The translations under genes and the position numbers were made by a program. Below, one piece after another: positions 1,746-6,501 of a stretch of DNA of 6,730 nucleotides (its first letter is position 1; each line of letters starts with the position of its first letter). Below the pieces are notes generated by a model, which ran no database searches, was not told where the DNA came from, and was given only the letters and a program-made list of their open reading frames with translations. Source of the DNA: Elusimicrobiota bacterium (GTDB lineage: Bacteria; CG03; SLGR01; PWQF01); the NCBI GenBank assembly GCA_003557485.1, contig PWOI01000181.1:1-6730 (forward strand). Direction: 5' to 3'.

Positions 1746-3674
1746 TTGCATAATATTTTTAGAAAAAGAAATTTTATTCTCACAACAGTATTGTTGTTTG
1801 TGTTATTTACAGGTTTTATAGTTGCAGCAATATTAAATTTTAAATCTACTCCAAAAAATATCCCATTCCGAACCGAAACATGTAAATCAGACCCATACTT
1901 AATAGTTTATTTTGGAGGCACTTTAGACACAAAAAACTTTCCTGTTTTTCTACAGGAAATACTTGATGAAAGCAGCAGAGACAGAATAATTTCTATAATT
2001 GACAAAAGTTTTAAAAACTCCAGCAGCTCTTATATTCTGAATCAGCTTCCTCATACCATAGAAAAATATGAGCCTGACATGGTTATTGTTATGGCTGGAA
2101 TTAATGACTTGAAGGCAAAAGAAAGTTTTCGCGAAAAAAAAATATATCATGAAAGTACTTTCCGCAGTTTGATAAGAATAAAAAGATTCTACCTGGATTC
2201 TTTAAGACGCAGGATTGAGAAACTTATTAATACCCAACAAACAGCTGTTTCAGATAAAAGCCCTTTGGAATACTATGAAAAAAGGTTCCCTGACAGAAGT
2301 ATGAATAAATTTTATGAGACCCAAAACAAATTCAAAAGAGCTCTTATTTTAAACCCCCACAATCACTTGGCATATATTAGTTTAGGGATCCTTTATCGTG
2401 ACTGGCATCAGTTAAATAGAGCCGAAGCCGCTTTTATGAAAGCTACGGAGCTTGTCCCCGATGATTACCGGGTGTATCTTGAACAAGGAATTCTTTACCG
2501 TGTTCAGGGTCGGTTTTCAAAGGCGGAAAGTGCATTTATCAAAGCAGCGGAAATAAACCCTGGTAATTATAGGGTTTTTTTTGAAAGGGGTTTGTTATGC
2601 CTTGAACGCGGTTTATATGAAGTTGCGGGAGAGTTTTTCAGAAAAGCTGTTTCATTAAACCCGAACAGTTATCGGGCGAATGTCCAATCGGGTATTATAG
2701 CCCGCGAAATGAAAAAATATGAAGATGCTGAATCATTGTTTTTGAGGGCAATTAAATTAAATCATAATGAGTACCGGGCTCTCCTTGAGTTAGGTCTGCT
2801 TTATAAAAAATGGGAGCGTCCTATAGAAGCAGAAATGTTTTTAAAACGGGCTGTTGAACTTTATCCTGTAGGGCACAGGCTTTACTTAGAGCGAAGTACC
2901 GCCTACCGTAACAGGGGGCGCATAGAAGAGGCGGAAGGTCTTCTTGAAATCGCAATCAAGATTATTCCTGAGACATTAGGACCGCATCTGGAACTGGGAA
3001 TACTTTATCGCAATCAGGGACGTTTTTCAGAAGCGGAAGAACTTATCCTGAATTTTAAAGAATTAATTCCTGAATACTACATGGCATACGCAGAACTTGG
3101 GTGGCTTTACTGGCGCCGGGGCCGGTTTGAAGAGGCTGAATTGCTTTTTAAAAAAGCCCTACAAAGCAATCCTGAACTTTCCCGGGCATATTTTGAGAAA
3201 GGCCGGCTTTATGAGACTTTGGGACGTTTAGCTGAGGCGAAAATCGCACTTAGAAAAGCAGTCTCTCTTAACCCTGAAAACGAGCAGGCTTATCTTGCTT
3301 TGGATAAACTTTTCAGCGCGCCAAACCCTGTAGAATTTATAAATGGAGAAGAGCCGGATATAACAGTCAAGAACTATAAGAGTATTAAAACTAAGCTTGC
3401 GAACAGGGGCATAGTTTTTATATGCATGCAGAATCCAATGCTAAATATCGAATCGTTTAAATCTATATTTGAAAGTGATTGCGAGAGTGTTATATTTATT
3501 GACAGCGGAAATATCTTTTGGGATGCCTTAAAGGATGAAAGAAACTCGGATTATCTTATAGACACACATAGGTGGAAATTCGAACATCGTACAGCTAAAG
3601 GCCAAAGGGCTCTTGCCGAGTATGTTGCGGGCGTAATCTTGAAAATCGCAGATTCAGACAAAGATAAAAACTAA
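1746..3674 (+). CDS. Membrane-anchored TPR protein with split, degenerate SGNH-hydrolase-like domain
   Basis: Residues 10-31 form a single N-terminal membrane anchor after a basic KRNF, so the rest is probably extracytoplasmic. Residues 50-122 resemble the first half of an SGNH/GDSL hydrolase, ending in PDMVIVMAGIND (110-121) with the block-III GxND intact. The nucleophile block reads GGTLDT (57-62), without the GDS Ser, and the block-II Gly region is replaced by KSFKNSSSS. Residues about 190-523 are TPRs. The loop Pro-type motif recurs every 34 residues from about 206 to 512, giving nine full units plus half units at each end. The second half of the hydrolase fold follows: VFICMQNPM (557-565), then FIDSGNIFWDAL, then KFEHRTAKGQRALAEYV (611-627). 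There the His is kept, but Lys stands where the DxxH Asp is expected. I infer a scaffold-type pseudo-hydrolase. The next gene begins 37 bp downstream, probably in the same operon. The listed start is TTG. An ATA at 1737 has a better-placed ribosome binding site. Confidence 0.88.
   Translation: MHNIFRKRNFILTTVLLFVLFTGFIVAAILNFKSTPKNIPFRTETCKSDPYLIVYFGGTLDTKNFPVFLQEILDESSRDRIISIIDKSFKNSSSSYILNQLPHTIEKYEPDMVIVMAGINDLKAKESFREKKIYHESTFRSLIRIKRFYLDSLRRRIEKLINTQQTAVSDKSPLEYYEKRFPDRSMNKFYETQNKFKRALILNPHNHLAYISLGILYRDWHQLNRAEAAFMKATELVPDDYRVYLEQGILYRVQGRFSKAESAFIKAAEINPGNYRVFFERGLLCLERGLYEVAGEFFRKAVSLNPNSYRANVQSGIIAREMKKYEDAESLFLRAIKLNHNEYRALLELGLLYKKWERPIEAEMFLKRAVELYPVGHRLYLERSTAYRNRGRIEEAEGLLEIAIKIIPETLGPHLELGILYRNQGRFSEAEELILNFKELIPEYYMAYAELGWLYWRRGRFEEAELLFKKALQSNPELSRAYFEKGRLYETLGRLAEAKIALRKAVSLNPENEQAYLALDKLFSAPNPVEFINGEEPDITVKNYKSIKTKLANRGIVFICMQNPMLNIESFKSIFESDCESVIFIDSGNIFWDALKDERNSDYLIDTHRWKFEHRTAKGQRALAEYVAGVILKIADSDKDKN
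2313..3314 (+). repeat. TPR-coding tandem array, 34-codon (102-bp) period
   Basis: The protein repeats every 34 residues without a single insertion or deletion. The loop before each first helix falls at residues about 206, 240, 274, 308, 342, 376, 410, 444, 478 and 512 (NPHN, VPDD, NPGN, NPNS, NHNE, YPVG, IPET, IPEY, NPEL, NPEN). Units share LYR at the end of helix A and GR(F/I)xxAE at the start of helix B. DNA copies have diverged at synonymous sites, so the array is old and functionally conserved, not freshly amplified. Confidence 0.9.
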
Positions 3675-3711: not shown

Positions 3712-6501
3712 ATGTCAAGCGATAATAAAGAATTAAAAAAGAATATAATTAAAGCCGGATTGGTTTATCTGGTTTTGATATCGGCGGCATATTTCCCAAT
3801 TGTATTCTGCAACAGGACACTGTCTATCGCTTCACGTTACCCATGGTTTAGGGGAGATAAATCACAGGAATTATTTGTTGAGTCTGATCTGCCCAATACT
3901 TTTAATGTAGACATTGCCCATCCGGCAGCTTACGAAGAGGTGCTGGATGTTTTTATAGGCAACCAGCTGAGAAAGGGTAAAATTCCGTTATGGAATCCTT
4001 TTCTGGGGTGCGGCATGACAATGATAGGACAATTCAGCACCCGGCTTATATTCCCTTTCCAGATGCTGCAGAATATATGCGGCTGGAACTGGCGAGATTT
4101 TTTTCTTCTTTTTAGGATATTTGCTGCTGCCATGGGTGTTTTTATTTTTTTAAAGGTTCTTGGACTCGGTTTTTATTCTTCCCTATCAGGAGGATTAATG
4201 TTCGGTCTTTCCGGCACAATGACCATTATGTTGACTCTTACTGAAATGAGCAATAACTCAATGATCTTACCTTATCTCTTGCTATTCAGTGAACTTCTTA
4301 ACCGTAAACCTGCATTCAAAAATGTAGCTTATTTAAGTATAGCAACCGCCCTTCTTATCCTGGCCGATCAACCGGAGGTCTCTTTTTACGCGCTTATTCT
4401 TGTTGTCTCATACTATATTTTCAGAATGAGAGCTTTCAAAGACGGCATATCAGGAAAAAAAAGGGGGGGGTGTTTAATCTCTTCAATGTTGCTGGGATTG
4501 ATCATTTCATCTCCTTTGTTTATACCTTTTCTAATCAACCAGGGGGCATATTATCATCTTCATCCACCCGGAGGCACTATGGGGGTTCAAGCCCCCACTC
4601 CTATCACAAATCTTATAGGTATAGTATTCCCGAGTTTTATGAGGTGGCGGGTTCCGGCATCATCTTTTACTATGAACTTTGGTTGGGATTATCTGGCCGG
4701 TTACACCGGAGCCGCTGCTGTTTTTTTTATATTGGCCGGATTTAAGAAAAAATGGTGGGGTTACGGAACATACCTATTTTTTTTGATTTTCGGAACCGTA
4801 ATACTTTTGAAAAACATAGGGTTTCCTGTTATAAGCTGGATAGGGTATCTTCCGGTATTTGATCAGGTATGGACACCCCGCTGGGCGGGTCCTGCTTGGA
4901 ATATATCCCTTGTTATTGCAGCAGCGATGGGGCTGGAGGCTGTATTATGTTATAATAAAAAACAACCTTCTCAAAATATAATAACCCCTTCTATTAATTC
5001 TTTATCATTATGTTTGGGAAGCATTGCCATAGCATCAGGGTTTGCAACAAGCGCAGCAATTTGGACTTTCGGTATACTGCCTGTGAATATTTTAAGTTTT
5101 GCTGTAGCGATCAGATGGCTTTTCTTTGTTGCAGGTTTAGTTCTTATTGGTTTTGCGATCAGGAAAATGAAGTACTATTACATATTTCTATGTATTCTCT
5201 TATATCTTATCTTGGCTTTCATAGAATTTCCTTTTTCATTGCTTCAGGTTGGCGCTATTAATATTTTTGATATTTCTGACCCTTTTGTACACCTGTCCGT
5301 ATTGATGGGCATGCTTGAAGCTGTTCTTGCCGGCATAGGAATTCCATTTATCCTTCTTCTGCTTTTAAATAAAGAATACCGTAACATTGAAGAGAAAGGA
5401 TTTATAATAACTGCAGTAATTACATTTGAGTTGTTCTTTAATCTTACTCTTGGGTTTGATGAAACCGCCAGGGCTGTTAGGCTTTTGATATATACTGTGC
5501 TTTATGCGGTTTTTATTTTATATGCTATAAAAAAAGATAACTCCCTAAAACGCGGGAGGATTGCTTTTATTTCTGCAGTCGGGTTAATACTTACAGGTTA
5601 TATAGGCTCAGGATCTTTACCTGAGAGAGATAAGCCCTTTAAGTATCCCTCAGCACTAAGTGATTATGACGGGATTTCACGTGTTATGGGAATACAAGGC
5701 GTAACATTCCCCAACTCTGCGGCAATTTACGGTATAAAAGATATTAAATCAATAGTAAGCACCTCTATAGAAAGGTTTCAGCTTTTTCAGGATTACTGTC
5801 TTTCCGTTATTCCTCAAGGAAAATATAAGAGCCTATGGTTTACGGGTGTGTTTGACAAAACAACAGGGCTGGATATATCGGATAATATAAGAGAAAGAAG
5901 CAGTTATTATTCTCTTGCCGGAATAAGCAGTTATCTTTCATCCCAATACGAGGAATTACCTGATACAATTCTGGCTGAAGACGGTGTTATGAAAAGATAC
6001 AAAAACCTGTCAGTTATGCCCAGAGCTTTTATTGTATCCGACTGGTCTTTCTCCGATTCCCCTCATTCTTCGTTAGACTGGATGCTTCGTAATCCTGATA
6101 ACTTTCATAACAAGGCTGTAATAGAAAACATATATAGCGATATTCCCGGCCTTCCGGAAGAAATTAAGGAAGAGTTGGATTATGAGATAGAATTTCTGGA
6201 TTACGGGCTGAATTCAGTAACTTTGAAGGTGCGTTCTTCTTCAGCGGGGCTTCTTGTTCTCACTGATACTTTTCATCCGGAATGGGTTGCCAGAATAAAC
6301 GGCATAAAACAACGAATATACCCCGTAAACCTGAGTTTCAGAGGGGTTTTTATTGAGCCCGGAATAAATAAGCTGGAGTTCAGATATGAACCTAAAAGTT
6401 TTTACATACCTTTATTTATATCAATACTTACTCTATGCGGTATACTGGCCGCTATGCTCATAAGTCATTCAGTTGAAAAGCATAAAAGATTTAAGAAATA
6501 A
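3712..6501 (+). CDS. YfhO-family large polytopic membrane protein
   Basis: The 929 residues begin with a membrane helix (about 12-33). The family-typical GKIPLWNPFLGCGM (89-102) in the first external loop corresponds to the YfhO pattern of PLWNP followed by a Gly-rich stretch. About 15 further hydrophobic segments run to residue 632, with ADQPEVSFYALIL (218-230) aligning to the usual GxPQxxFY-like motif. An extracytoplasmic domain spans about 640-895 and includes PNSAAIYGIKDIKS (667-680), HPEWVARING (855-864), and RIYPVNLSFRGV with IEPGINKLEFRYEP (868-894), the classic YfhO C-terminal signature. One last helix (about 897-917) and a basic cytoplasmic tail follow. B. subtilis YfhO acts with CsbB in N-acetylglucosamine decoration of lipoteichoic acid, and the fold is GT-C-like. 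A surface-glycan role here is inference. No flippase or polyprenyl-glycosyltransferase gene is in view. The gene contains an A8G8 run at 4455-4470. The ribosome binding site before ATG 3712 is weak. Confidence 0.9.
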   Translation: MSSDNKELKKNIIKAGLVYLVLISAAYFPIVFCNRTLSIASRYPWFRGDKSQELFVESDLPNTFNVDIAHPAAYEEVLDVFIGNQLRKGKIPLWNPFLGCGMTMIGQFSTRLIFPFQMLQNICGWNWRDFFLLFRIFAAAMGVFIFLKVLGLGFYSSLSGGLMFGLSGTMTIMLTLTEMSNNSMILPYLLLFSELLNRKPAFKNVAYLSIATALLILADQPEVSFYALILVVSYYIFRMRAFKDGISGKKRGGCLISSMLLGLIISSPLFIPFLINQGAYYHLHPPGGTMGVQAPTPITNLIGIVFPSFMRWRVPASSFTMNFGWDYLAGYTGAAAVFFILAGFKKKWWGYGTYLFFLIFGTVILLKNIGFPVISWIGYLPVFDQVWTPRWAGPAWNISLVIAAAMGLEAVLCYNKKQPSQNIITPSINSLSLCLGSIAIASGFATSAAIWTFGILPVNILSFAVAIRWLFFVAGLVLIGFAIRKMKYYYIFLCILLYLILAFIEFPFSLLQVGAINIFDISDPFVHLSVLMGMLEAVLAGIGIPFILLLLLNKEYRNIEEKGFIITAVITFELFFNLTLGFDETARAVRLLIYTVLYAVFILYAIKKDNSLKRGRIAFISAVGLILTGYIGSGSLPERDKPFKYPSALSDYDGISRVMGIQGVTFPNSAAIYGIKDIKSIVSTSIERFQLFQDYCLSVIPQGKYKSLWFTGVFDKTTGLDISDNIRERSSYYSLAGISSYLSSQYEELPDTILAEDGVMKRYKNLSVMPRAFIVSDWSFSDSPHSSLDWMLRNPDNFHNKAVIENIYSDIPGLPEEIKEELDYEIEFLDYGLNSVTLKVRSSSAGLLVLTDTFHPEWVARINGIKQRIYPVNLSFRGVFIEPGINKLEFRYEPKSFYIPLFISILTLCGILAAMLISHSVEKHKRFKK
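4455..4470 (+). repeat. A8G8 homopolymer tract inside the YfhO-like gene
   Basis: Eight A (4455-4462) directly followed by eight G (4463-4470) encode GKKRGG at residues 248-253, a basic loop between two membrane helices, probably cytoplasmic. Losing one G puts TAA (4475-4477) in frame at once. Gaining one G moves translation into a frame that stays open to 4745. Poly-G of this length is a classic slippage substrate. Confidence 0.9.

Follow-up and report, generated by a model that had tools for sequence, protein, structure and literature searches.

The window, by which the whole analysed stretch of 6730 bases is meant, is an entire contig of a draft genome (86.6% complete, 212 contigs) and ends just after a pair of genes on the forward strand. 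The first of these genes (1746..3674, +; TTG start) encodes a protein of 642 amino acids, which the open reading frame list, the sequence and Pfam together indicate to be a TPR-interrupted SGNH-fold protein. The second gene (3712..6501, +), located 37 bp downstream, encodes a YfhO-like multi-TM protein of 929 amino acids. Its C-terminal match to PF09586 (E 4.7e-5, 22.4 bits) is below the gathering cut-off of 28.5 bits, and we take the protein to belong to the GT-C kind of glycosyltransferase. On the opposite strand, ~230 bp upstream of the TPR-SGNH gene, lies the remnant of a Mutator/IS256-type transposase (951-1511, -) whose profile match is confined to positions 233-376 of 379 and which no upstream frame continues. 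The remnant adjoins a gene for a DUF6901 protein (161-916, -; E 1.3e-69), to which no function is assigned.

The window protein begins with a hydrophobic segment at residues ~12-32 (1779..1841, +), seen in the sequence and within a model helix at residues 2-33, that is likely a membrane anchor or uncleaved signal. Its relatives likewise carry a single N-terminal hydrophobic segment, and we infer an extracytoplasmic, membrane-tethered location for the window protein. The first part of the SGNH fold, comprising strands and blocks I-III (residues 45-125; 1878..2120, +), was placed using PF13472 and positions 8-120 of acetyl xylan esterase. Alignments locate block I at GGT (57-59; 1914..1922, +), within YFGGT at 55-59, the block II region at DKSFKNS (86-92; 2001..2021, +) and block III at GIND (118-121; 2097..2108, +). 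The helix that follows block III (residues 134-164; 2145..2237, +) corresponds in the model and the alignments to the LRIYKL-type helix of relatives, and a further modelled helix (186-202; 2301..2351, +) leads into the TPR array (207-512; 2364..3281, +). After the last TPR, a modelled helix (513-524; 3282..3317, +) precedes the second part of the SGNH fold (541-635; 3366..3650, +), which the alignments resolve into a helix, the strand VFICMQNP, the strand VIFID and the block V helix. Strands are predicted in this C-terminal region at 556-560 and 581-585. Block V reads DTHRWKFEH (606-614; 3561..3587, +), and its helix follows His614. The sequence VFICMQNPM begins at residue 557 and the segment HRTAKGQRALAEYV occupies residues 614-627, so that the two SGNH halves, counted from GIND to VFICMQNPM, are ~436 residues apart. 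The positions that the first-pass annotation had given for GIND, VFICMQNPM and the HRTAKGQRALAEYV helix are all correct.

The TPR array was recognized by Pfam, by a window-derived TPR model, by the structure model and by Foldseek. Its 34-residue helix-turn-helix repeats exceed curated cut-offs, with a Pfam TPR_1 match of E 2.9e-43 over 8 stretches, and NCBIfam reported only sub-threshold TPR families for the window protein. The window-built model divides the array into exactly nine units, from 207-240 to 479-512, at a constant pitch of 34 residues, in agreement with the earlier description of an indel-free nine-unit array. Mean pairwise identity among the nine repeats is 35%. When the whole window protein was compared with a collection of genome contigs, only a TPR protein was matched (L012).

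Three paralogues are present on another contig (C102) of the same genome: a degenerate copy (L009:8392-9945), an intact-looking copy (L009:16854-18329) and a truncated copy (L009:86-841, -). The last stops after about two TPR-like units, ends ...RGHHIPQAG and is without the second SGNH half; located near the contig end, it is either a truncated gene or an assembly edge. The window contig has a G+C content of 38% and C102 of 46%. In addition, positions 16769-19990 of L009 on C102 are 100% identical over 3222 bases to L050, a contig (G003:C76) of a genome from a different family of the same order. Because of this identity bin mixing is possible, and the contig may be shared or mis-binned. Two SGNH proteins of the ordinary kind, without interruption, are also encoded in the same genome.

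Taken alone, the window protein is ambiguous as an SGNH protein because its N half by itself matches Lipase_GDSL_2 (PF13472) weakly (E 0.0012; 19.8 bits at profile positions about 18-88, below the cut-off of 32.9 bits). The N halves of relatives are clear, with 37.3 bits for the truncated paralogue and 66.7 bits for L054:9401-11218, both above the cut-off, and the C half of one relative alone matches PF13472 positions 86-177. The match of the halves to SGNH/GDSL profiles that the first-pass annotation had anticipated is thus found most clearly in the relatives. With the TPRs spliced out, three relatives match PF13472 in a single stretch, at positions 1-177 of 178 (71.9 bits), 1-178 of 178 (52.3 bits) and 1-176 of 178 (27.5 bits). 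The N halves of the same three relatives gave 50.7, 41.1 and 25.9 bits, ending at positions 87-98, and a control in which the C half was shuffled gave 54.3, 41.9 and 24.4 bits, adding little. The gain from splicing is small for the intact-looking paralogue (25.9 to 27.5 bits). Halves joined in reverse order scored nearly as high (69.4 bits), as two separate stretches. Because the reversed halves score almost equally, the PF13472 score demonstrates the SGNH-like nature of both halves, while their order and continuity are a separate and weaker point. Since profile fragments are expected to keep most of their score when reversed, the case for one fold lies in the halves being complementary, consecutive parts of it.

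The spliced window protein still stops at PF13472 position 88, and the SGNH assignment of its C half therefore rests on the family. This half is 29-37% identical to the C halves of its two paralogues. A whole-domain match to the curated SGNH profile is reached by spliced relatives, and the window protein enters through the family. The spliced-core family profile matches numerous SGNH enzymes of solved structure, and within a single chain of acetyl xylan esterase (4oap) its N half covers 8-120 and its C half 157-211. A spliced relative also aligned with an ordinary GDSL esterase gene of the plasmid collection in a single alignment (95% coverage, 24.6% identity, E 4e-4). In L092, both half-profiles match weakly (21 and 27 bits) with 26 residues and no array between them. 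According to the spliced-profile alignments, the insertion site is bounded on the N side by strand 3 (block III) with the helix that comes after it, and on the C side by the helix and strand that lead into block V. The continuous PF13472 matches of the spliced relatives and the span of the family profile on acetyl xylan esterase bear out the proposal of the first-pass annotation that the flanks are two halves of one SGNH fold. On these sequence comparisons, we consider it very probable, for the architecture and the one-domain homology jointly, that the two flanks belong to a single SGNH domain, which the TPR array interrupts between block III and the strand that precedes block V.

A single-sequence AlphaFold2 model of the window protein predicted the TPRs well and residues 30-184 and 526-642 at pLDDT below 50. 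All matches listed from a Foldseek search with this model were solenoids of TPR or similar helical repeats. The low model confidence of the flanks, together with the weak Pfam match, the missing active-site residues and the long branch of the window protein, would suit a protein whose flanks are no longer SGNH-folded and which functions as a TPR scaffold with decayed ends. This reading is unlikely, however, in view of the conserved hydrophobic and structural core positions, the identity of the C half to those of its paralogues and the invariant Pro, Asp and His. Moreover, the paralogues of the same genome keep both SGNH halves wherever the gene is complete.

We infer that the two flanks of the window protein pack into a single core. 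A nine-repeat TPR solenoid separates its own ends by tens of angstroms, and the linker on the C side has only ~16 residues (525-540), a geometry that could also be accommodated by a domain-swapped dimer in which halves of two chains pair and the TPR array bridges two SGNH cores. The range of insert lengths among relatives would be tolerable for such a swap. The linker on the N side, however, has ~65 residues including a long helix and could bridge the gap within one chain, and we regard the swapped arrangement as very unlikely. Packing within one chain is the reading that we prefer.

The architecture that the first-pass annotation had singled out as distinctive is real and far exceeds what chance would give, but it is not unique to the window. 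In the complete open reading frames examined, the order of parts is an N-terminal hydrophobic segment, PF13472 positions 1 to ~75-107 (once to 149), TPRs and a conserved C-terminal block, which in the close family ends ...F.D.FaGDFGHcT.kGn.llAeniA. The insert between the halves is ~110 to ~430 residues long across relatives and usually consists of TPRs; in L096 the two profile matches are ~110 residues apart. Among the 17 members measured, the distance from Ser or Thr to His ranges from 352 to 555 residues, with the window protein the longest. Searches with the C-half profile found the family in 4 of 16 genomes of the phylum of the window, in 9 genomes among 386 broader relatives, and in 1 of 2, 3 of 39, 3 of 7 and 17 of 191 genomes of four other phyla. 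Both halves were confirmed within one open reading frame in members of all five phyla, and one of the 3 of 7 matches is the array-free L092. Copy number is high in some genomes, with 10 copies in G270 and 9 in G388. The loci L054, L076, L079 and L081-L084 represent this expansion, and several of the genes are grouped in adjacent clusters of a single contig. A complete TPR-SGNH gene of G007 is adjoined by a further N half, fragmented and with a TPR stretch (L048 2-2957, -), that is near-identical to it in blocks I-III, probably as the result of a recent tandem duplication.

A tree of the cores has long branches, including that of the window protein, and the four sequences of its genome group only weakly (82/89), so that the window protein and the degenerate paralogue are not claimed as sisters. 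The plasmid collection contained no TPR-split homologue; ordinary GDSL-type esterases were found with one query and nothing with the other. No model in Pfam or NCBIfam covers the combined TPR-in-SGNH architecture, no account of an SGNH domain interrupted by TPRs came up in a search of the open-access literature on SGNH/GDSL and TPR, and neither tetratricopeptide repeats nor insertions are mentioned in an SGNH review of 2022. Overall, the occurrence of the architecture across the surveyed genomes and phyla, often in multiple copies, reveals that it is real, recurrent and patchy. Judged by sequence comparison, this is an unnamed bacterial family with a TPR solenoid inserted in an SGNH domain, distributed patchily over at least five phyla.

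The catalytic motifs vary among the members of this family. In the 17 members with both halves, the block V His is always present and the nucleophile is Ser in 15. It is Thr in the remaining two, the window protein (GGT) and the degenerate paralogue (GDT), which also has GFHN in place of GIND. The intact-looking paralogue has the motifs GEST, GIND and GDFGH, and for this reason the family is regarded as primarily enzyme-like. Most members, in which Ser and His are kept, probably have ester activity towards a glycan or a lipid-linked substrate. The window protein has Thr59 where the nucleophilic Ser of block I is expected, and has lost the block II Gly (DKSFKN, compared with DKGxxG in most close relatives). 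The Asn of block III (GxND) is retained as Asn120. In block V, His614 is kept, as is Asp606 at -8, which is nearly invariant among close family members, and Lys611 stands at -3, where close relatives mostly have Asp. Because Thr59 replaces Ser, the block II Gly is lost and Lys occupies the position at -3 from His, the window copy is probably catalytically inactive. The degenerate paralogue, likewise with Thr for Ser, is probably non-hydrolytic too. The (pseudo)enzyme core of the first-pass annotation is therefore a likely description of the window copy, but not of the family, most members of which keep Ser and His.

Thr59 could in principle act as the nucleophile. The window protein would then be a working esterase or acyl transferase that uses Thr59, His614 and Asp606 and whose TPR array serves as a platform for substrate or partner; the retained His614, Asn120 and Asp606, the intact open reading frame and the Ser and His of the relatives are consistent with such an enzyme. 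We consider it quite unlikely, since both copies with Thr are otherwise degenerate, the window protein in the block II Gly and the paralogue in GFHN, and since an acyl donor of the AlgX/PatB/OafA type was not evident from searches for MBOAT and AT3. MBOAT was found in none of the 16 genomes of the phylum, and AT3 in a single one, which lacks the TPR-SGNH family. As the four family-positive genomes have neither MBOAT nor AT3, an O-acetyltransferase role of the AlgX/PatB/OafA type was also considered and rated less likely.

Both copies with Thr lie directly upstream of homologous YfhO-like genes. The gap is 76 bp at the degenerate paralogue, whose YfhO-like neighbour is just over the PF09586 cut-off (29.1 bits) and 58% identical to that of the window. 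In the paralogue operon, the TPR-SGNH gene is followed by the YfhO-like gene, a GT2 gene and a gene for a further membrane protein with overlapping ends. Most relatives are without a YfhO-like neighbour; the pairing was seen twice, and the two pairings may, and probably do, stem from one duplication. The intact-looking paralogue (L009 16854-19983) is convergent with a carbamoyltransferase gene (Carbam_trans_N/C) in a cluster of GT2, radical SAM/SPASM and large membrane proteins.

In the model that we propose for the window protein, the SGNH flanks would together build a single core at the outer surface of the cytoplasmic membrane, with the TPRs projecting from it. The solenoid would sit in the connection from strand 3 (block III, GxND) to strand 4 of one alpha/beta/alpha domain. 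The dead SGNH core may retain a glycan- or partner-binding surface, the TPRs may recruit further envelope components, and the protein would in this way scaffold a YfhO-type extracytoplasmic glycosylation module. We give the whole model, a membrane-anchored one-domain TPR-SGNH protein whose dead window copy scaffolds a YfhO-type glycosylation module, a probability of about 0.5. Two systems are relevant to this role. Extracellular glycosylation of lipoteichoic acid in Bacillus needs both CsbB (GT2-type) and YfhO (PMC5836110). Alginate is bound in Pseudomonas by a complex of AlgX, an SGNH-like protein, with the TPR protein AlgK (PMC9734138). Together with the membrane anchor and the YfhO-like neighbour, these precedents suggest that the window protein could be an adaptor for the YfhO-like protein, an assignment that we hold tentatively. 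The cell-envelope adaptor suggested by the first-pass annotation is thus plausible from its anchor and partner.

In the handling of envelope polysaccharides, SGNH enzymes do the tailoring and TPR proteins organise the export. In the present family the two would be interleaved in a single chain, whose length and catalytic state differ from paralogue to paralogue. Active and dead copies with short and long arrays offer a natural series for learning how a solenoid can be accommodated in a Rossmann-like core and what purpose the members without activity serve. The family also deserves a name, as annotation pipelines likely label its genes plain TPR or GDSL. More speculatively, the family might represent a widespread, undescribed envelope class with a TPR solenoid of variable length within an SGNH domain, whose dead branch would be a dedicated GT-C (YfhO-type) adaptor and a one-chain counterpart of AlgK-AlgX.

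The SGNH/GDSL hydrolases (PF13472; acetyl xylan esterase 4oap/3w7v, TesA 1ivn) have the same block order of I, II, III and V. Unlike them, the present family has an insert of the lengths given above, usually of TPRs, between blocks III and V, and the Ser is lost in the window. The OafA/OafB AT3-SGNH acetyltransferases (PMC7448272) and PatB likewise have a membrane-linked SGNH domain, which in their case acts on envelope glycans. They have an AT3 or MBOAT acyl donor and no TPR insert, whereas no such donor was found in the genome of the window. The CsbB-GtcA-YfhO systems (PMC5836110) share with the loci described here a YfhO-like protein and an adjacent GT2, the latter in the paralogue operon. 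They differ in that here a TPR-SGNH gene precedes the YfhO-like gene, and the YfhO match of the window is below the cut-off. The family list of the window protein does not include AlgX (PF16822), which the C half of one relative matched at E 0.11, below the cut-off. As in the present family, AlgX-AlgK (PMC9734138) brings together an SGNH-like protein and a TPR solenoid, there in the export of an envelope polysaccharide; in that system they are two separate proteins and the SGNH core has no TPR interruption, whereas here the solenoid and the two SGNH halves share one chain.
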